Positions 18,093 through 52,302 of a stretch of 64,000 nucleotides of DNA are shown in pieces (position 1 is the first letter of the stretch; every line of letters begins with the position of its first letter). The notes below the pieces were generated by a model. That model made no database searches. It was given only the letters and a program-made list of their open reading frames with translations, and had not been told where the DNA came from. Made by a program: the position numbers and the translations under genes. This stretch comes from Demequina aurantiaca (GTDB lineage: Bacteria > Actinomycetota > Actinomycetes > Actinomycetales > Demequinaceae): positions 345,591-409,590 of the forward strand of contig NZ_BBRF01000001.1 of NCBI RefSeq assembly GCF_000975135.1, read 5' to 3'.

Positions 18093-18671
18093 TCAGAATG
18101 ATGGGTCCCAGAAGGGACCCTCGCGGGGCTCCTCCGCGGTCAGCGCGAAGACGGCGTGGTCGCGCCAAGCGCCGTCAATGTAGAGGTACTTCGCGCGCAG
18201 GCCCTCTGCTCGGAAGCCGAGTTTTTGCACCACCCGATGGCTCGCTGAGTTGTCGGGTCGCAATGCGATTTCCAGGCGGTGAAGGCCCTCGCCAAAGGCG
18301 TATTCGCTCATCATTGCGACTGACCGAGGGACGATGCCGCGGCCAGCGTGGTCCTCCGCAATCCAGTAGCCGATGGAGCCACCGCACTGCGCGCCCCACT
18401 CGATTGCATGGACGGACACTCGCCCCACCAAGGCACCCTCCCACTCAATGACCATCGAGAACGCGGTCCGGGCTTTCCATCTCCCCCGCTCACGTCGCAC
18501 ATAGGCCGGGAAACTAGCGGACACCTGCGGGCGACCGGGAGGCATGTTCGCCTCCCACGGACGCAGCCACGCGTAGTTCTTACTGCGCACCGCCATCCAC
18601 TCCGCCTCGTCACTACGCCGTAAGGGCCGAAGCGTCAGGGATCCTCGCCTCAGGACGACCTCACGAGACAT
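18093..18671 (-). CDS. GNAT acetyltransferase, RimJ/RimL type
   Basis: 192-residue acetyl-CoA-dependent N-acetyltransferase. The family N terminus is LTLRPLRRSDEAEWMAVR. The acetyl-CoA binding part reads GYWIAEDHAGRGIVPRSVAMMSEYAFGEGLHRLEIALRPDNSASHRVVQKLGFRAEG. RimJ acetylates a ribosomal protein in E. coli, but the true target here is unknown. It starts nine bases after glp and is part of the galU-glp-rimJ-glpR cluster. Confidence 0.88.
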   Translation of the reverse strand: MSREVVLRRGSLTLRPLRRSDEAEWMAVRSKNYAWLRPWEANMPPGRPQVSASFPAYVRRERGRWKARTAFSMVIEWEGALVGRVSVHAIEWGAQCGGSIGYWIAEDHAGRGIVPRSVAMMSEYAFGEGLHRLEIALRPDNSASHRVVQKLGFRAEGLRAKYLYIDGAWRDHAVFALTAEEPREGPFWDPSF

Positions 18672-18680
18672 GGTTTCCCG

Positions 18681-19928
18681 CTAGTCCCACAGGGTGCAAC
18701 GGAGCGAATCGCCGCGAGTGACGTTGGCAACGTCGGAATCGACCCATGCCAGAGCATCGGACGCCACCACGTTGGTCAGCGAAATCTCCCCTGGGATTCC
18801 CACGGGGGTGGCGAAGTGCTGACCTGAGCCTGTGGTCTCGATCGTGACGGGAACCGGCTGCACCTGTCCGTCAAGGGACCGCCAAGAAGCGATGGAGCGG
18901 GCGTGAATGGTGGGACGGTCCACTTCGGTGCGTCCGCTCATGAACCGCAGTGCGGGGCGCACGTAGGCCTCGAAGGCGATCAAGGCGGCCGTGGGACTAC
19001 CGGGCAGTGCGAGCACCGGGATGGGGTGCTCGCCATCGGCGCTCACCAGACCATAGCCGTGCCGCTTGCCCGGCCACAGCCCAACCTCGCCTACGCGCAC
19101 ATCTCCGAGGTCCTTCAATACAGCGGCCACGGTGTCATTGCGCGCCTCGGACAGGCCACCGGTGATGAGCACCACGTCGGCGCGCACCAGTTGGTCCTCG
19201 ATTGTTGCCCGCACGCTACCCCGGTCGTCGGGCACCACTCCCACCCGGTACGCATGTGCACCTGCCTCACGCACCAAGGCGCTCAACATGTAGGCGTTGG
19301 ACTCGGGCACCCGCGATCCGGGTCTACCTGCGCCAGGCTCCTCTAACTCGGAGCCGACGGAGATCACGACCACCCGGGGCACTGGGCTGACGGTGAGTCG
19401 GGCATTGCCGAGCGCAGCCGCGAGAGCGATGCGCCGCGCGTCCAGCCTCGATCCCTGGGGGATCGCCATGCTGCCGGAAGCCGCCTCATCACCCGCGGAG
19501 CGGATATGCGCCTGTGGGTGGGTGGGCGCCATAATCTTCACGCGCGCCACGCCGCCGTCGGTCATCGCTACGGGGACCACGGCATCGGCGCCGATGGGTA
19601 CGGGAGCGCCGGAGCTGATCCGTGCCGCGGCGCCGCGAATGTGACGACGCGGGGCCCGCGCGTCAAAGGATACGTCGTGGGACACCGTGAGCGAGACGGG
19701 ATTCTCGTCGCTCGCGTCGGCGATGTCCGCGGCCTGCACCGCATAGCCGTCACACATCGCAACGTCGGTCGCCGGGAGCGCATGCTGAGCGACAACATCG
19801 CCCACCAGCGTCGCACCGATGGCGTCCGCGACGAGCACGTCGAGCGGAGGCAGCGGCCGCAGCCCCGCGATCACCTCAGCGCGGTGCTGAACGAGGGTGC
19901 GCGGCTCCGCGTCGCTGCTGAGAATCAT
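18681..19928 (-). CDS. glp: Gephyrin-like protein Glp / MoeA family
   Basis: 415 residues of the MoeA/gephyrin family. The N terminus (MLxxAEPRTLVQHRAEVIAGL-like) leads into PATDVAMCDGYAVQAADI, then ISSGAPVPIGADAVVPV, GDEAASGSMAIPQGSRL and VISVGSEL. The molybdopterin-binding part has LITGGLSEARNDTV and PVLALPGSPTAALIAFEAYVRPAL. The start ATG directly abuts the galU stop (TAGATG). MoeA inserts molybdenum into molybdopterin, but no other molybdenum-cofactor gene is near. Synteny with galU and a GlpR/SepX-like gene favours the division-related Glp paralogue. Which role applies here is an inference. Confidence 0.88.
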   Translation of the reverse strand: MILSSDAEPRTLVQHRAEVIAGLRPLPPLDVLVADAIGATLVGDVVAQHALPATDVAMCDGYAVQAADIADASDENPVSLTVSHDVSFDARAPRRHIRGAAARISSGAPVPIGADAVVPVAMTDGGVARVKIMAPTHPQAHIRSAGDEAASGSMAIPQGSRLDARRIALAAALGNARLTVSPVPRVVVISVGSELEEPGAGRPGSRVPESNAYMLSALVREAGAHAYRVGVVPDDRGSVRATIEDQLVRADVVLITGGLSEARNDTVAAVLKDLGDVRVGEVGLWPGKRHGYGLVSADGEHPIPVLALPGSPTAALIAFEAYVRPALRFMSGRTEVDRPTIHARSIASWRSLDGQVQPVPVTIETTGSGQHFATPVGIPGEISLTNVVASDALAWVDSDVANVTRGDSLRCTLWD

Positions 19929-20867
19929 CTAGGCATTGTCGCGCGTGGACACGAAGCCCTGCAACCAGGTCGTAAAGTCCGGACCGAGGTCCGTGCGCTT
20001 GGCGGCGAGCTGGACCACGGCCTTGAGGTATTCCAACTTGTCGCCGGTGTCGTAACGGTGGCCGCGAAAGACGACGCCGTACACGCCGCCACCATCCTCA
20101 GCCGGCATTGACGCCAGCGTAGAGATCGCGTCGGTGAGCTGAATCTCACCGCCGCGTCCCGGCGGTGTGGTCTTCAGGACGTCAAGCACGGCCGGGTTGA
20201 AGACGTAGCGGCCAATCACGGCCAAGTTCGAGTACTCCTCGCCTGGTGCTGGCTTCTCGTTCAGTCGGGAGATGCGGTGGATCTCGAGTCCGTCCGGGAC
20301 CTCCCCCTCCCCCGGCAGGTCCACGGCGGCGACGGACGTGGGGTCCACCGAGCCGTACATCTGGATCATGTGGGGTGGAACCTCGAGCAGCAGGATAACC
20401 GAGCCGCCCGTGCGCTCCTGGATGCGGCACATCGCGTCCAGGATGTAGTCGTCAGCGTCCAGGAAGTCGTCGCCGAGCAGAACCGCAAACGGCTCCCCGT
20501 CAACCCATTCCTCGGCGCGGCCCACGGCATGACCGAGACCCTTGGGATCTCCCTGGTTCACAAACGCAATCTCACCTTTGGACGAGGTCTCACGGACCGC
20601 GTCGAGCCGTGCCTGATCGCCCTTGCGCTCGAGAGCGGCCTCCAAGTCCGGCGCCGGGGCGAAGTGACGCTCCATCGCCTCCTTGCCCGGGTTAGTAATC
20701 AGGCACACGTGATCGAGCCCGGCGGCGAGCGCCTCATCGACCACGTATTGGATCGCCGGCTTGTCGACCACCGGGATCATCTCTTTGGGAATCGCCTTCG
20801 ATGCTGGTAGAAAGCGAGTTCCTAGTCCCGCAGCGGGGACGACGGCCTTGCGAACGCGAGAAGTCAT
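19929..20867 (-). CDS. galU: UTP-glucose-1-phosphate uridylyltransferase
   Basis: Makes UDP-glucose for cell-envelope glycans, 312 residues. The nucleotidyltransferase start RKAVVPAAGLGTRFLPASKAIPKEMIPVVDKPAIQYVVDEA is diagnostic; AVLLGDDFLDA and LPGEGEVPDGLEIHRISRLNEKP follow. Its product could feed the UDP-glucose dehydrogenase encoded at 32905. First gene of the galU-glp-rimJ-glpR cluster, with a start-stop junction to glp. The gene is divergent from the cyclo-ligase gene. Confidence 0.97.
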   Translation of the reverse strand: MTSRVRKAVVPAAGLGTRFLPASKAIPKEMIPVVDKPAIQYVVDEALAAGLDHVCLITNPGKEAMERHFAPAPDLEAALERKGDQARLDAVRETSSKGEIAFVNQGDPKGLGHAVGRAEEWVDGEPFAVLLGDDFLDADDYILDAMCRIQERTGGSVILLLEVPPHMIQMYGSVDPTSVAAVDLPGEGEVPDGLEIHRISRLNEKPAPGEEYSNLAVIGRYVFNPAVLDVLKTTPPGRGGEIQLTDAISTLASMPAEDGGGVYGVVFRGHRYDTGDKLEYLKAVVQLAAKRTDLGPDFTTWLQGFVSTRDNA

Positions 20868-20934
20868 GGCACGAGACTAACGCGTGAGGTTAGTCACATC
20901 GGCCTGGCGAAACATTCTGTTTACCAAAATTTGG

Positions 20935-20940
20935 CACAAT
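20935..20940 (+). promoter_or_regulatory. -10 box of a leaderless cyclo-ligase promoter
   Basis: CACAAT with six bases between it and the ATG at 20947, and no ribosome-binding site. The palindrome CCAAAATTTGG lies just upstream at 20924-20934. Confidence 0.45.
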
Positions 20941-20946
20941 GGAACC

Positions 20947-21573
20947 ATGACACAGCAGTCGATGACCTCCCAGCGTGCAGTCGAACCGGCCGACTCAAAG
21001 GCGCTCTTGCGCTCCAGCATCCGCAAGGGACGCGCCGACCGCAGCGAGCGACGGCTCCAAGAGCACGCAGAAGCTCTCCGCGACCACGTCCTCGCCCTCC
21101 CCTCCGTCGGCAAGGCGAAGTGCGTTTCTGTCTACGCCTCACGAAGGTTTGAGCCCGGCACACTGCCGCTCATCGAAGCGCTGCACCAGCGCGGTGTCAA
21201 GGTGCTGATCCCCATGCTGGGCGATGGCCTCAAGCGTGGATGGGGTATTTATCAGGGCGCCGACGACCTCGTCGAGCGAGCACCTGGCCGCCCTCCGGAG
21301 CCGTCCGGGGAGTTCCTTGGCCAGGAAGCCCTGCACGAGGCCGAGGTGGTGGTGGTTCCTGCGCTTGCCGTCGACACCACTGGCAACCGCCTGGGCCAGG
21401 GCGGCGGTTGGTACGACCGTGCGTTGTGCGACGCAGCGCCCGATGCGCCGATCGTGGCGCTCACGTTTGCCGGCGAATTGCGCGACGAGGCGCATGCGCT
21501 TCCTCACGAGGAACACGACATCACCGTGCACGCCGTCATCACCCCGCAAGGAGTGACTCGGCTCCCGGCGTAA
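20947..21573 (+). CDS. 5-formyltetrahydrofolate cyclo-ligase
   Basis: Recycles 5-formyl-THF to 5,10-methenyl-THF with ATP, 208 residues. Family motifs are KALLRSSIRKGRADRS at the N terminus, SRRFEPGTLPLIEALHQRG and KVLIPMLG in the middle, and the signature VVVPALAVDTTGNRLGQGGGWYDRAL near residues 137-162. ATG 20947 was chosen over 20884 because the family N terminus begins there and a -10 box lies seven bases ahead. It is divergent from galU, a pairing widespread in actinobacteria. Confidence 0.95.
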   Translation: MTQQSMTSQRAVEPADSKALLRSSIRKGRADRSERRLQEHAEALRDHVLALPSVGKAKCVSVYASRRFEPGTLPLIEALHQRGVKVLIPMLGDGLKRGWGIYQGADDLVERAPGRPPEPSGEFLGQEALHEAEVVVVPALAVDTTGNRLGQGGGWYDRALCDAAPDAPIVALTFAGELRDEAHALPHEEHDITVHAVITPQGVTRLPA

Positions 21574-21582
21574 GATACGTGC

Positions 21583-21795
21583 ATGCCTACGTACACTTAC
21601 GCATGTTCCGCATGCCAGCACCGCTTCGATGAGGTGCAGTCAATTCACGATGACACCCTCGTTGCATGCCCCGAGTGTGGTGGAGCACTGCGCAAGGTTT
21701 TCGGCACCGTGGGCGTGACCTTCAAGGGCTCGGGTTTCTACCGCACCGACTCGCGCGAAACCAAGAAGTCGGCACCCAGCAGCAGCTCCACTTAG
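21583..21795 (+). CDS. FmdB-family zinc ribbon protein
   Basis: 70 residues. MPTYTYACSACQHRFDEVQSI and ACPECGG give the two CxxC knuckles of the FmdB regulatory-protein zinc ribbon, followed by KGSGFYRTD, the usual end of the domain, and a Ser-rich tail. Function is unknown; it commonly follows the cyclo-ligase gene, which ends nine bases upstream. Confidence 0.93.
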   Translation: MPTYTYACSACQHRFDEVQSIHDDTLVACPECGGALRKVFGTVGVTFKGSGFYRTDSRETKKSAPSSSST

Positions 21796-21928: not shown

Positions 21929-24900
21929 TCACCAATGCGGCGGCTTATCCCGCTTGATCTCGTCGTCCCGTGAGGACCCGCCGTGCGAGCCACCCCAGGC
22001 CTCGTCAACGTCCTCCCACGCACGAGTGGGAATCAGCGGCCGGTCCGCGCCGCGGTGTCGGGCCTTGACGTCCGGCTCGGGAGCCTTTGGCTTGGACGCT
22101 ACGTTCTTCGCGTCACCAACCTCATCTGAGGCGTCCTCGTTGGCATCAGCATCAGCATCAGCATCGACGTTAGCGAAGTTCGCGTCTTCGCCTTCAGTCG
22201 CCCCGTCGTCGTCAGTTCCCTGACTTGCCGCCACTGGCGGGGCAACCTTGGGCACACCAAAGCCCATGCTGAAACTGGGAACGGGCGTGGGGCCGGAGTC
22301 GGGCGCAAGTTTCGGCACCACGATCTCCCCGTCCGAACCGTCAGCTGCCGCGGGGCTCACGTGTTCTGCGTCCGCACCCTCGTCGACAACCCTGGTGACC
22401 TCGGCGGTGTCAGCCTTGTCGATGAGTTCTGGACCGTCATTGTGCCGCTCGGATTCAGCAGGCTCGCCACCAATCTGCTCGTCGATCAGCGCGGAGATTC
22501 CAAGCGTCTGGGGGTGAGGCTCGTCGCCCTCACCAGGCCCAGCATCGGCCTCATCATTTGCGCCAGAACCCGAGTCCTCCACGCGCAAGTCAGCGATGGC
22601 AAAGTCGTTGCCGTCCTCGCGCGCGGCCTCCAGCGCGTCGTCCTCGGACGGCAGCTCGATTCGCTCGACCTCGATGTCGAGAGCGGGCTGAGTGACCTCA
22701 CGCACAGTTCCGGTGCCCACCGTGGGAATCGCAGCGGTACCGATCGCGGCAGTGCCACCCGGGCCGTCCTCGGGGCGGGATTCGCCGAGTGCGTCGAGCA
22801 CCTGCTCAATTGCGGAGTCCGGATCCATAAACACATCGAGCGTCCACAGGGATACGACTGTCCACCCCAGTGCCTCGAGGGTCGAGTACTGCCAGCGCAT
22901 GCGGTCGCGCAGGCTGGCCGCGCCCACCGCCGCCGCCTCGTCAGTCACGACGGCTACCTGGTAATTGCGGTCGTGGCGGCCGCCCACGACCATCGCGATG
23001 GTGTCGGAACCCACGCCATAACGCAGCCGCACTGCGAGTCCATGCCGGCGCAGGCGACCCGCGATGTCCGCGAGCAACCAGTCGCTGGGGCCAGGATCCG
23101 GGCGCTCGGGAGTCACTGCAGGAAGATCGACCGAGGACAACAGGTCGCGGAAGTCGTCGATCCCATGACCCTCGTGCGCCCTGCTCGCCGCGCCCGAAAG
23201 CTGAGTCGGGTTGAGTGCCGTGAACACACTCACCCGCTCAATCGACACGACCAAGGCCTGAACCAGCGCCTGCTTTCCCCACGTCTCCGAGAGGGCGCCA
23301 AGTTTCGCAGGGGCCACGCCCCGCGCATCGGCCGCGTAGCCCAGGGTGACCACGACTTCGTCCGCCACTACGCCTGCGGAATCGCCAAGGGTCATGACAT
23401 GCACCGCATCGGCGAGCCTGGCATCGCGTTCACGCAACGCATCGACGATGCGCGAGCCATGAAGGTCGTTGCCGGCCACCACTGCTAGCGCGCGGCGCGG
23501 CAGCGAGTCACGCACCCGGGCGACGTGGTCGACGACCGCCGTCACCTCGGCCCGGGTCGATTCCACCTCAACCGCGCCCGCCACCGGGGCACCGACCGCC
23601 TCCAGTACCGTCACGTCGAGCCCGCCACGCTCCTCGGCAGCAGGGAGCGCGGACAGCGATCGCCCATAGGCGGCACTAGCGAGCACCGAGGTCACCCGCG
23701 GGTCGCGAGGCTGAGGAACGGCATGCATGACAATGTGCGGGAGGAGTCGCGCGAGCGCGGCCACGCCGGACCGGGTCGCCGTCTGCGCATCTCCCAGCAC
23801 CACCACCTGGCGCGCCCGGGCCAGCGTCGACACGAGCTCCGCAAGTGCGAGCGACTCCCCCGCCACGATGACCGCGAGGTCAATGCAGCGGCTGGCGGGA
23901 GCCATACGCGCCACCTGCTCGGCGCCAGCAACAACGACGGGGCGCAGCGCGGTGACGAGCGGCGCGTAGTCGCGCCAGAGTTCCTTGAGCGATCCGTCGC
24001 CGCCCTCGACCAGCGCGGCAAAGAGGTCGCGAGCGTGGTCGGGGTGACGCGCAATCGCTGTACGCCGGCGTTCCGCGACCGCGCGCATCAACGGACCCAC
24101 CCGCGACGCCCCGAAGGCGGTGTCGCGGTCAAGGAAGGCGTCGACGGCCCTGCCAAGCGCCCCTGTCTCGGTCAGGCGCACATCCGCCGCGACGATGGAG
24201 TCGAACGCAGCGGCCCACCACGAGAACTCGAGGTCACGCCGCACCTGTTCCGGCCCGGCCCCGCGCGCGTTGAGGTCCGCAAGAAGTTCGGCGAAGCCCA
24301 CTGCCTCGATGTCCGCCTCGATGGGCACGGCCTCGACGGCATCGAGCGATCCCGGGATGCCCTCCGCCAGCGTGCTGAGTACCGAGACCATGTGATCCCA
24401 GGGCTGCTCGGCCAGCTTTTCCTCGCCCGATGCCTGCTCGACGACGTCCACAATCAAGCCCCAGAGTTCGGCCGAGTTGTGCAGACGCTCGCTAAAGATG
24501 TCGAAGTCGTCGGGGACCACGGGCCACCCGCCGGAGGGGCTGTGGGCGCGCCACTTGAGCGCTTGCTCGTGGGCCTTGACGAGGTTCTCGTGGAGGTTCT
24601 CCTTGCCGCGCCCTGGGCGGAGCAGCTCGACGGCGCGGCGCACCATTCCGCGGCGATCGCGGCGGGGAACATCCTGGTAGCGAGGCGATGACGACGGTGC
24701 CGTCGCAGCAACTAGGTCGTGCAACGAGCGATGGAAGACCGCGGGTGAGAACACGTCCAGCGTGGCCCGGATATCGTCGAACATCGTGACCTGGTCCGCC
24801 CACACGGCGAGTGAGGGCGCCTGGTCGACTCCGGTCTCGTGCGCAGCCAACGCGGCTTCGGTGCGCATTTTGGGAATCTGGCGCACCAAGATCGTCGCGA

Positions 24901-26386
24901 GCGCCTCGTCGTACTTGGCGCCCACCTCGGCGTTATCCGTCGCCGCGGACCACCATGGCACCAGGTCCTCTGCCGGCGCGGAAGCCTCCGCAGCATCGGC
25001 GGCCTCGGCCTCTTGAACGGAACGGTCTTCGGCTGCAGCGGTCTCATCGAGGTGTGTCACCAACTCGGCTGCCACGGAGGCAAATCCGTGGTCGGCAACG
25101 ATCGCGCCTGCATCGGCTCCCAAACGAACCGTCGTCGCCGGGGCGGGGTCGCTGGACGTCAGCCTCACGACTGCTTGTACTGCCTCGAAGGCGCTCACGC
25201 CCCACGGACGGTGAGGACGGTGCAGGGAGTCGAAGCGCTGCTGGAGTCCGTGACGAGCTCGGAGCATGGCCTCGCCACCCTCGCGCAACTGGGCGTCGTT
25301 CACCTCGACCGCGCCCAGCGTAATGGCCGACAGCAGTCGCGCTCGCGCCTCCGCATTCCAGGCGCGCGAGTGCCCGTCGATGTACAGGTCGCCCGCGCCC
25401 AGATCGTCGAGGCGCCGTCCCACACCTGCGACCGCGCCGTCGCTTCCCGAGACCACGGCAACGACCTTGCCCGATGCTGCGGCATCGGCGGCCACCGCAG
25501 CGGCCATCGATAAGGCGTCGGCGCCGGGGGGTGCCTGCAGGAACACGCTGCGGCCCGTCGCGATCACGTCGAGCGCCGCGAACTGGTTGTCGTCTAGGTC
25601 GCCGATGCCACGCTCAGCGAACGGGTCACGGTCGCCCTTGGGAAAGGCCGGTAGTGGACTGGCGAGCAGTTGCGCCGCGTCCTGGTCGCCGGCGACGGCG
25701 GCAAGGATGTCCGATGCGCCGATGACAGCGTCGCAGTCGTCCAGGTCGTCGAGCAGGCGTTGCTCCGGGTCGTCATACGCACCCACCAGCAGGTTCTCGA
25801 CCACGGCAAAGTCCTCGCCAAAGAGCGCGCCGCGCTCGCGCAACGCATTCCAGATGGGGCGTGGGTCGAACGCCTTGCCGGCGCCCGGCGGTGGCACGAG
25901 GTCGGCGAGCGACGCGGTATCCCCACGCGTGCGCAGCTCCGTGGCGACGATGGGGTTGAGGCTCACTCCGTCCAGCAGCGTGAGGTAGAAGTCGCGGTCG
26001 TTGAAGGCCTCCACCAGCATGGGGCGCAGCAACACGGGAACCTCGCGGCGCGCTCCGTCCTGGGTCCACGTGGCGGTGCCGACGGACATCGCCGCGGTCC
26101 AGACGCCCGATGCCGCCTTGACCTGCGTGGCCTGGCGGTAGATGAGGCCGATGCGGTGAAGGGCTGCCGCCTGCGGCGCCTCATCGCGAATCAGCGCGGA
26201 GACAAGCGTGGGACGGCCGGCAAACAGCGGCGCGATGCCGGCGGGGTGCGCACCGCGCAGATCGACCACGTCCGCGCCTGCCGAGACTAGGTCTCGTAGC
26301 GGCGAGACGGTCGCCGATGTCGCGAGTTGCTCTCGCCATTCCTGAAGCGCCTCGGACACCAAGGCGCGGCCGATGTAGTCCACCAC
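21929..26386 (-). CDS. Giant DUF4011/superfamily I helicase-like protein with eroded catalytic motifs
   Basis: 1,485 residues from GTG 26386. The domain order resembles the large actinobacterial helicase-like proteins that end in an MTES_1575-type nuclease domain. The first RecA-like part has LDDNQFAALDVI, but the P-loop reads LQAPPGADALS, without the Gly-Lys-Ser/Thr core. The Walker B position reads CIDLAVIVAGES instead of a DEA(S) motif, followed by a normal-looking ARQVVVLGDAQ. The late helicase motif reads MTLGDSAGVVADEVVVTLGY, and the arginine-finger position reads ALVVSIERVSVF. The nuclease-like part (RHGLAVRLRYGVGSDTIAM to RDRMRWQYSTLEALGWTVVSLWTLDVF) lacks an evident acidic/lysine centre. 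About 220 residues of acidic low-complexity tail follow. The frame is intact, so it is not an obvious pseudogene. Confidence 0.8.
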   Translation of the reverse strand: MVDYIGRALVSEALQEWREQLATSATVSPLRDLVSAGADVVDLRGAHPAGIAPLFAGRPTLVSALIRDEAPQAAALHRIGLIYRQATQVKAASGVWTAAMSVGTATWTQDGARREVPVLLRPMLVEAFNDRDFYLTLLDGVSLNPIVATELRTRGDTASLADLVPPPGAGKAFDPRPIWNALRERGALFGEDFAVVENLLVGAYDDPEQRLLDDLDDCDAVIGASDILAAVAGDQDAAQLLASPLPAFPKGDRDPFAERGIGDLDDNQFAALDVIATGRSVFLQAPPGADALSMAAAVAADAAASGKVVAVVSGSDGAVAGVGRRLDDLGAGDLYIDGHSRAWNAEARARLLSAITLGAVEVNDAQLREGGEAMLRARHGLQQRFDSLHRPHRPWGVSAFEAVQAVVRLTSSDPAPATTVRLGADAGAIVADHGFASVAAELVTHLDETAAAEDRSVQEAEAADAAEASAPAEDLVPWWSAATDNAEVGAKYDEALATILVRQIPKMRTEAALAAHETGVDQAPSLAVWADQVTMFDDIRATLDVFSPAVFHRSLHDLVAATAPSSSPRYQDVPRRDRRGMVRRAVELLRPGRGKENLHENLVKAHEQALKWRAHSPSGGWPVVPDDFDIFSERLHNSAELWGLIVDVVEQASGEEKLAEQPWDHMVSVLSTLAEGIPGSLDAVEAVPIEADIEAVGFAELLADLNARGAGPEQVRRDLEFSWWAAAFDSIVAADVRLTETGALGRAVDAFLDRDTAFGASRVGPLMRAVAERRRTAIARHPDHARDLFAALVEGGDGSLKELWRDYAPLVTALRPVVVAGAEQVARMAPASRCIDLAVIVAGESLALAELVSTLARARQVVVLGDAQTATRSGVAALARLLPHIVMHAVPQPRDPRVTSVLASAAYGRSLSALPAAEERGGLDVTVLEAVGAPVAGAVEVESTRAEVTAVVDHVARVRDSLPRRALAVVAGNDLHGSRIVDALRERDARLADAVHVMTLGDSAGVVADEVVVTLGYAADARGVAPAKLGALSETWGKQALVQALVVSIERVSVFTALNPTQLSGAASRAHEGHGIDDFRDLLSSVDLPAVTPERPDPGPSDWLLADIAGRLRRHGLAVRLRYGVGSDTIAMVVGGRHDRNYQVAVVTDEAAAVGAASLRDRMRWQYSTLEALGWTVVSLWTLDVFMDPDSAIEQVLDALGESRPEDGPGGTAAIGTAAIPTVGTGTVREVTQPALDIEVERIELPSEDDALEAAREDGNDFAIADLRVEDSGSGANDEADAGPGEGDEPHPQTLGISALIDEQIGGEPAESERHNDGPELIDKADTAEVTRVVDEGADAEHVSPAAADGSDGEIVVPKLAPDSGPTPVPSFSMGFGVPKVAPPVAASQGTDDDGATEGEDANFANVDADADADANEDASDEVGDAKNVASKPKAPEPDVKARHRGADRPLIPTRAWEDVDEAWGGSHGGSSRDDEIKRDKPPHW
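22143..22166. repeat. Short GCATCA tandem repeat inside the acidic tail
   Basis: Three GCATCA hexamers and one variant encode an alternating Asp-Ala run in the C-terminal tail of the giant helicase-like protein. Length change by slippage would stay in frame. Confidence 0.8.
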
Positions 26387-26657
26387 TCCCCTACGGTAAC
26401 GAGCGCAACGAACTCCCGCGCGGCACCACGCCGCACCCAGTGCTGTGCTCTTGGACACACTCGCGGACCGCCAGCATTATTTGCCTGCGCCGAACGTACG
26501 TTGCGGGACCGCGAGGAGGAGTGCGGGGCCGCGCAAGAAAAGACAGTGCGCGCCGACTTATCCAGCCGACACGCACCGTTGGGGAAATTGTGGCCCCCCG
26601 GACCCCGCGCGTCAACTCGGACGCGCCAGTCCTCAGTGCGCGAGGTCGGTCACGTTC

Positions 26658-50977: not shown

Positions 50978-51144
50978 GCACTTACGCTACCGTTCACACG
51001 CTTTGCCGGAACCCATCCCTGTGGCAAGATGGTTCCACGGCCGCACCGATGCGACCGTAAGCAAGTGTCACAGTGGACACCACCTCGACACTCTTCACCA
51101 CGGATCGTCTGGCACGTACCTGCCAGTGAAGGGATTTATCAATC

Positions 51145-52302
51145 ATGGCTACAGTCACTTATGACGGCGCCTCGCGCATCTACCCCGGAACCGAGCGTCC
51201 CGCCGTAGACAAGCTCAACATCGAGATCGCTGACGGGGAATTCCTCGTCATGGTCGGCCCGTCCGGTTGCGGAAAGTCAACGTCGCTGCGCATGCTTGCC
51301 GGCCTCGAGGACATCGACGACGGCGCCATCTGGGTTGGCGACCGCGACGTCACCCACGTGCAGCCCAAGGACCGCGACATCGCGATGGTGTTCCAGTCCT
51401 ACGCGCTTTACCCCCACATGTCGGTGGCCGACAACATGGGCTTCGCCCTCAAGATCGCCAAGGTCGACAAGGCCGAGATCCGCAGCCGCGTTGAAGACGC
51501 CGCCAAGATCCTGGACCTCACCGAGTACCTAGACCGCAAGCCCAAGGCACTCTCGGGTGGTCAGCGCCAGCGCGTGGCCATGGGCCGTGCCATCGTCCGC
51601 CAGCCGCAGGTGTTCCTCATGGACGAGCCGCTGTCCAACCTTGACGCCAAGCTTCGTGTCCAGACGCGTACTCAGATTGCCGCTCTTCAGCGCCGTCTTG
51701 GTACCACCACGGTCTACGTCACGCACGACCAGACCGAGGCACTCACCATGGGCGACCGCATCGCGGTCCTCAAGGACGGCGTGCTTCAGCAGGTCGGCAC
51801 CCCGCGCGACATGTACGACACCCCCAAGAATGTGTTCGTTGCAGGCTTCATCGGCTCCCCCGCCATGAACCTCGGCACCTACCAGGTGTTCGACGGCCAG
51901 GCTCAGGTGGGCCGCGCGAAGGTCACCCTGTCGCGTGACGCCATCGCACAGCTCAAGGCCGACGACAAGAACCACGTCGTGCTGGGCTTCCGCCCCGAGT
52001 CGCTCGACCGTGCCGCCCCGAACGCCGAGGGTGCCATCCCGATCGAGGTCGACATCGTTGAGGAGCTCGGCTCCGACGCGTTCGTCTACGGCTCCATCCC
52101 CAACGAGTTTGGCGAGAGCAAGGACCTCCACTTTGCAGCCGGCGACTCGCAGGTTGTTGTCCGCATCGACCCGCGCGATGTTCCCGGCAAGGGCGACACC
52201 ATCTGGGTCACCATCCGTGGCGGCGAGCAGCACGTGTTCTCCGCAGCAACGGGTGACCGCCTGAACGCGGCGACCATCCACCAGGACGGCATCGTCAAGT
52301 AG
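51145..52302 (+). CDS. Sugar ABC transporter ATPase, MsmK/UgpC type
   Basis: 385 residues. The nucleotide-binding domain has Walker [10 protein letters not shown] (38-46), LSGGQRQRVAMGRAIVR, Walker B VFLMDEPLSNLDAK and H-loop VTHDQTEALTM. A C-terminal TOBE/OB region (VLGFRPESLD) is typical of CUT1 transporters. No permease gene is beside it. In actinobacteria one such ATPase (MsmK or MsiK) often serves several sugar importers, so it could power the permeases at 5425-7168. A strong terminator follows it, so it is monocistronic. Confidence 0.96.
   Translation: MATVTYDGASRIYPGTERPAVDKLNIEIADGEFLVMVGPSGCGKSTSLRMLAGLEDIDDGAIWVGDRDVTHVQPKDRDIAMVFQSYALYPHMSVADNMGFALKIAKVDKAEIRSRVEDAAKILDLTEYLDRKPKALSGGQRQRVAMGRAIVRQPQVFLMDEPLSNLDAKLRVQTRTQIAALQRRLGTTTVYVTHDQTEALTMGDRIAVLKDGVLQQVGTPRDMYDTPKNVFVAGFIGSPAMNLGTYQVFDGQAQVGRAKVTLSRDAIAQLKADDKNHVVLGFRPESLDRAAPNAEGAIPIEVDIVEELGSDAFVYGSIPNEFGESKDLHFAAGDSQVVVRIDPRDVPGKGDTIWVTIRGGEQHVFSAATGDRLNAATIHQDGIVK

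Follow-up and report, generated by a model that had tools for sequence, protein, structure and literature searches.

At the locus analysed here, which lies in a 64,000-nucleotide stretch of Demequina aurantiaca DNA (the window), the minus strand carries a long open frame, intact from 26386 down to 21929, that encodes a protein built like a helicase-nuclease in which the residues expected of the motor have been replaced (Table 1). The plus-strand frame over the same positions is interrupted by stops, which rules out a gene on that strand. Homology among relatives begins at the same start codon (V/VxDYIGRAL), and a further in-frame GTG lies upstream, at 26458. The nearest copy of the protein, in genome G016, is 92% identical; a close paralogue in the window's own genome is rejected, since a search there returned one match to the window protein, at E 0.01, to which the ProA model adds two weak nuclease-end matches below 19 bits. 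Throughout the Demequinaceae the gene stands tail to tail with a zinc-ribbon gene, which is followed by genes for 5-formyltetrahydrofolate cyclo-ligase (5-FCL), galU, moeA and GNAT; the locus is mostly housekeeping and no typical defence island. The zinc-ribbon neighbour is presumably linked to Ruc/FmdB. Ruc (Mtb Rv0991c) is a zinc-ribbon chaperone (PMC7448276), and the convergent neighbour is likewise a small zinc-ribbon protein (Zn_ribbon_8), a likeness that concerns this neighbour gene alone and not the helicase. Elsewhere in the window, at 51083-51141 on the plus strand, an msiK cis-regulatory RNA (RF01747, 63.4 bits) lies just 5' of the frame 51145-52302.

Table 1. Features of the locus, in window coordinates
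Feature	Position	Strand	Remark
Core pseudo-helicase/nuclease gene	21929..26386	-	1,485 codons plus stop, GTG start
Walker A remnant, residues 285-293, APPGADALS (orthologues GPPGTGKSQ)	25508..25534	-	alignment
Walker B remnant, residues 841-844, VAGE (orthologues DEAS)	23855..23866	-	alignment
Late motif remnant, residues 1000-1009, LGDSAGVVAD	23360..23389	-	AGVVAD (1004-1009) pairs with QGDERD
Motif VI remnant, residues 1046-1051, VVSIER (orthologues TRSRRR)	23234..23251	-	alignment
MTES_1575 (Vsr-like) nuclease-fold domain, residues 1107-1200	22787..23068	-	Pfam PF18741, 49.2 bits
Disordered acidic linker, residues 1206-1440, 25% D/E	22067..22771	-	pLDDT mostly about 30
Fused PPHW microprotein peptide, residues 1441-1485, including stop codon	21929..22066	-	family alignment
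Convergent neighbour, 70-aa zinc-ribbon protein (Zn_ribbon_8)	21583..21795	+	PF09723, 61.7 bits
5-Formyltetrahydrofolate cyclo-ligase (5-FCL), syntenic neighbour	20884..21573	+	
GNAT, moeA-like and galU-like genes of housekeeping cluster	18093..20867	-	

An earlier note on this DNA had described an intact frame in which every catalytic motif of a helicase and nuclease was eroded, and the observation is borne out on the minus strand. All four strings that it quoted are present (AGES at residues 842-845, the others as in Table 1) and pair with the motifs of intact orthologues, with the key residues replaced; for Walker B the loss stands, the aligned remnant being VAGE, one residue before AGES. 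In the columns scored against intact orthologues, the window protein has A for the Walker Lys, L for Ser/Thr, V for Asp, A for Glu and A for Gln, V and I for the first and second Arg of motif VI, and V for the nuclease Glu, and a Walker A GK[S/T], a Walker B DE, a QGDE-type motif and the motif VI Arg are all missing. A usual-form P-loop at a shifted place is ruled out, the pattern [AG]xxxxGK[ST] being absent from the entire protein; the PPG of Walker A is still conserved. The word "every" holds for the six ATPase residues scored in this work (K, S/T, D, E, Q and the first Arg of motif VI) and for the nuclease Glu, but not for a second nuclease Asp, which is present in the window protein and in 75 of the 79 core rows of the first locus set. 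The missing glutamate, the E of VAVETDG in intact orthologues, is L in all four rows from ProA-like loci, and because these rows lack it too, its loss from the window protein speaks weakly for a dead nuclease. Judged from its sequence, the window protein would be catalytically inactive, the case being weaker for the nuclease than for the motor.

The terminal domain, in which the earlier note saw a nuclease-like region with no clear acidic/lysine centre, is recognizable as MTES_1575, labelled Vsr-like in PMC3710099, at a score above the Pfam gathering score of 38.2 bits. DUF4011 reaches 11.6 bits in the window protein, below its Pfam cut-off of 22.2, and 28.8 and 29.3 bits in two intact orthologues. 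The predicted structure of residues 1-1200 (pLDDT 85.6, pTM 0.75) has Foldseek matches to the helicases UPF1, SETX, IGHMBP2 and Aquarius with E down to 1.2e-8, and aligns with SETX over 455 residues (Z 17.1, rmsd 6.1) and with UPF1 over 510 (Z 17.0, rmsd 6.3). An SF1B, UPF1/SETX-like fold with two RecA-like lobes is thus predicted to be retained. The likeness concerns the predicted fold of residues 1-1090, at 8-17% identity in the listed matches; unlike these helicases, the window protein is bacterial, is without ATPase motifs, and has a C-terminal nuclease domain and a PPHW tail. In a second AlphaFold model, of residues 286-1485, the linker is disordered and the tail undocked, with pLDDT about 40-48 at the end.

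Among named bacterial families, the nearest are linked to defence. Two intact-motif orthologues (L151 and L165), which show AAA_11, AAA_12, DUF4011 and MTES_1575, score 830 and 803 bits against PDC-S37, which PADLOC lists as a candidate defence family; the window protein, in contrast, scores just 105.7 bits, with its best stretch at 1008-1206, has lost the motifs, and is core in its order. Similarity to ProA (NF058533) and Hhe (NF042953) is weak, at 153.8 and 35.6 bits, far under the curated cut-offs of 1500 and 2000, and its best stretches are the second helicase lobe and the nuclease; by whole-protein score, therefore, the window protein is not a ProA. ProA above the cut-off occurs as a separate gene in 2 of 19 relatives, including one Demequina, and one more Demequina match, at 1371 bits, falls under it. 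The two frames over the cut-off, of 2189 aa (L183, Demequina G034) and 2167 aa (L182, G051), have GKS, DEAS and QGDE motifs, and both genomes also carry an eroded core copy. A PPH[WYF] frame is found at the 3' end of none of the four ProA-like loci.

The gene was found in 44/44 genomes of the genus and 47/47 of the family and, with a mixed profile (A5), in 243 of the 248 genomes of the order (231 of the 233 of good quality); profile A1, from eroded Demequinaceae, under-detects distant orthologues and found 200 of the same 248. The first locus set leaned to eroded copies, and 40 loci were hand-picked from the A5 list for family coverage; together with 66 loci of the first set they make up the 106 loci read outside the Demequinaceae (f1), families f12, f16 and f18 not being among them. 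Four ProA-like loci (L182, L183, L188, L191) served as an outgroup and are not counted. With short flanks, a zinc ribbon or 5-FCL gene is seen in many loci of f13, f3, f4, f6 and f19 and in some of f9, f17, f7 and f8. With flanks of up to 10 kb, 14 of 18 loci show the zinc ribbon, among them all six intact f17 and f5 loci and two reduced genomes of 0.8 and 0.9 Mb (L162, L163), which retain the eroded helicase near it; it is missing within 10 kb in the other four, namely f45c (an intact copy), f15 and both f11 loci. Because the site is shared, the order appears to have a single core gene, intact in some copies and eroded in others, which in many families stands at the same chromosomal site. In L162 and L163 there is also a nearby ...LPPHF... 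frame that weakly resembles the microprotein end of their family.

Erosion of the motor is common to most of the families read. The Demequinaceae alignment, restricted to frames longer than 1,300 aa, covers 42 of the 47 genomes (G010, G022 and G037 have broken frames, G033 is split between two contigs, and G046 ends with its contig). The Walker lysine is absent from all 42 rows, its column varying among A, P, S, V, T, I and G; the P-loop mostly reads xPPG[A/S]D, and P287 and G288 are nearly invariant. The three broken Demequina copies (L036 in G022, L046 in G037, L047 in G010) are split over several frames, by indel errors or breakage. Outside the family, all six ATPase residues are kept in 14 of the 106 loci: 10 of 12 in f17, both in f5, and one each in f45c and f36c, which come from other orders, against none of the 90 other loci; by locus set, they are 10 among the first set's 79 core rows, of which 13 are Demequinaceae, and four of the 40 further loci. 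In 15 other families of the order, every copy that was read is eroded. The lysine is replaced mostly by Q in f6, mostly by A in f7 and by R in f38, and the nuclease Glu is kept despite the loss of ATPase residues in 7/11, 6/7 and 4/4 copies of these families, respectively; it is kept in none of the 13 Demequinaceae rows and in none from f4, f9, f13, f3 or f20. A stray K stands in the Walker column of L133, an eroded row from f3.

The direction of change was read from a quick LG+G4 tree of 83 rows, computed with no bootstrap, in which 13 of the 42 Demequinaceae are represented, the 40 later loci are not included, and the deep order is tentative. Rooted on the ProA-like rows, it places the intact rows near its base. 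If the Walker lysine is ancestral, the tree suggests at least three separate losses: one in f38, one in L153 and one at the root of a clade of 64 rows. The outgroup keeps the ATPase residues in 4/4 rows and has the nuclease Glu in none of the four, so the direction of change is less sure for that residue than for the ATPase residues.

Despite these losses, the protein is under strong constraint. Between the window and G016, omega (NG86) is 0.075 overall, with 0.010-0.046 for the folded domains, 0.209 for the linker and 0.025 for the tail, values that come from one close pair, a simple method and GC-rich DNA; for eight neighbour genes of the same species pair omega is 0.028-0.060. Among other Demequina copies, the 40 pairs with the lowest dS give 0.053-0.378, which is purifying but higher, and is read without a neighbour benchmark. 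The dN/dS comparison proposed in the earlier note thus shows purifying selection, similar in the folded domains to that on housekeeping neighbours, rather than neutrality. Its suggestion that the protein is a retained pseudoenzyme is well supported by this selection, by the uniform lack of the Walker lysine among full-length Demequinaceae copies, and by the predicted retention of the SF1 fold. The same note had held that relatives keeping GKS and DEA, with this copy decaying, would speak against a pseudoenzyme; f5 and most of f17 do keep these motifs, but the window copy is not decaying.

What the earlier note called an acidic tail, offering protein interaction through it as one possible role, consists of two parts, a linker (1206-1440) that is disordered and variable and a peptide at the very end (1441-1485) that is strongly conserved, and the suggested interaction can be narrowed to the latter, a PPHW peptide encoded elsewhere by a separate gene. 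Conservation across the family is 73% in the final 45 residues, as against 20-33% in linker columns (1216-1440), and the PPHW ending is found in 41 of 42 Demequinaceae rows. L042 is without the tail, and a few bases at most separate its frame from the end of its contig. A tail profile finds a single strong match (E <=1.4e-13), located at the helicase locus, in each of 13 out of 14 genomes, and in the fourteenth, G054, a weak match at the helicase locus. The bare PPHW DNA pattern was uninformative in the window's own genome (30 matches, against 16 for the reversed pattern), and protein profiles were used instead.

Outside the family, a PPH[WYF]-terminal frame lies at the 3' end of the helicase in 89 of the 106 loci, fused in 20 and split in 69. 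The split form, seen in most other families read, has the peptide as a separate short frame just downstream, often overlapping the helicase gene; its start codon is at exactly -4, the classical overlap of coupled genes, in 32 of the 69, at -1 in five and elsewhere nearby in 29, with neither in three, against a background of start codons at 3.3% of positions in these 3' ends. Two unexplained PPH[WYF]-ending frames lie elsewhere in the 1.18 Mb of strand sequence that the first 70 loci comprise. A strict rule finds no such frame in 17 of the 106 loci, including all six of f20, and counts as absent the variant or out-of-range ends of L132 (PPHA), L175 (PPHH) and L159 (PPHW too far from the stop) as well as displaced copies in L187 (at +821) and L138 (on the other strand). 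Helicase and PPHW-ending short protein thus form a gene pair, fused in five families (f1, f13, f6, f15 and f17), with at least seven changes between fused and split forms on the tree. The window has the arrangement proposed below as a helicase/PPHW module, a zinc ribbon/5-FCL locus with the PPHW peptide fused or in the next gene, in its fused form.

The short protein also extends beyond the helicase. At E 1e-4 it is found in 139 of 296 genomes of the class, once each; outside the order it occurs in 127 of 269, and a helicase above 1000 bits in 25 of these 269. The peptide counts come from tail profile A3, which under-detects: within the order it found 12 of 27 genomes. Flanks were read for 20 class loci, and a zinc ribbon is present in 14 of them (in 13 on the opposite strand) and a helicase in two. 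These loci (L316-L335) encode a class-wide PPHW/PPHH microprotein, roughly of the form LPxxTxD[DE]...GWG[DE]...RLLxERPPH[W/H], mostly without a helicase. Three microprotein examples and the window tail match no Pfam or NCBIfam model. Because the peptide occurs where there is no helicase, it must there have another partner, and a class-wide partner for PPHW may be proposed.

Taken together, the gene encodes a core SF1B-type helicase-nuclease of the PDC-S37/ProA/Hhe kind, by predicted fold, that has lost its ATPase residues and is strongly constrained. The reading preferred here, at slightly better than even odds (about 0.53), is that a defence-type helicase-nuclease was domesticated and may now serve, without catalysis, as a scaffold that PPHW tethers to a conserved partner. 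In such an arrangement the body, as a scaffold or clamp, would bind either nucleic acid or the surface of a protein and would do so without ATP cycling, the disordered acidic linker would act as the tether, and the PPHW peptide would dock on a partner present across the class. Candidate partners would be RNA polymerase, a repair or replication complex and the neighbouring zinc-ribbon protein, a nucleic-acid machine being no more than a guess. The protein probably arose when a defence-type enzyme was domesticated, as the two intact orthologues match PDC-S37 so well. A counterpoint is that the microprotein could be an ancient operon neighbour that makes no physical contact with the helicase.

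Alternative explanations part from the domesticated scaffold at different points. The protein may still be an enzyme of a non-canonical kind, binding ATP without the lysine or cutting DNA without the scored glutamate, and the intact predicted fold, the conserved PPG and second nuclease Asp, and the lack of the same glutamate in 4/4 ProA-like rows all lend this some weight; it is nevertheless unlikely, given that substitutions in the window protein have removed Lys, Ser/Thr, Asp, Glu, Gln and the two Arg of motif VI, and that the Lys column varies freely in the Demequinaceae (A/P/S/V/T/I/G), with no other P-loop pattern. Rather unlikely is a present role in defence, as a core guard, decoy or regulator working with active anti-phage helicase-nucleases. 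ProA, Hhe and PDC-S37 are the nearest named families, and ProA stands over its cut-off in two relatives, one a Demequina, but the order-wide presence of the gene, the many loci beside housekeeping genes and its retention in genomes of 0.8-0.9 Mb point elsewhere, and 17 of the 19 genomes have no ProA over the cut-off (the Demequina match at 1371 bits being one of these). The decoy or scaffold in defence offered by the earlier note is therefore not supported; it is the distribution, as an order-wide core gene, that makes defence today less likely.

The helicase body might instead be mainly a carrier or stabilizer for the PPHW microprotein, with the latter doing the work. That the peptide is the wider of the two (127 against 25 of 269 class genomes outside the order) and has been fused repeatedly would suit such a role, which is quite unlikely in view of folded domains whose omega, at 0.010-0.046 against G016, implies more constraint than a carrier needs. 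A pseudogene in slow decay could be imagined from the lost catalytic residues and from the frames that are broken in three of the genus's 44 genomes (G010, G022 and G037, one of them a 50%-complete assembly), but the intact frame, the overall omega of 0.075 and a loss common to 15 families leave it almost no credence, and decay is refuted by selection and distribution.

A wider reading, put forward tentatively and at somewhat less than even odds, is that the locus belongs to an undescribed core module, in which a class-wide PPHW/PPHH microprotein would dock on a conserved cellular machine, one order and f38 would have attached an active helicase-nuclease of the defence type to it, and the motor would then have been lost in most families, leaving a dead scaffold that is indispensable even at 0.8 Mb. 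No earlier description was found in a literature search, which could not be made by sequence and had most subscription journals outside its reach.

Most descriptions of pseudoenzymes concern dead copies that coexist with living paralogues. Here a single orthologue can be traced from intact motifs (f5, most of f17), through copies in which the ATPase is lost and the nuclease Glu mostly kept (f6, f7, f38), to copies that have lost both (Demequinaceae and others), and the protein has been kept by selection through the series, which makes it a natural test of a role for a helicase-nuclease that does not unwind. It may also mark a path from phage defence to core cell biology. The short protein, widespread and unmodelled in Pfam and NCBIfam, belongs to a family whose repeated fusion to the helicase points to a functional partner, and the eroded protein itself probably has an important job that needs no motor function.
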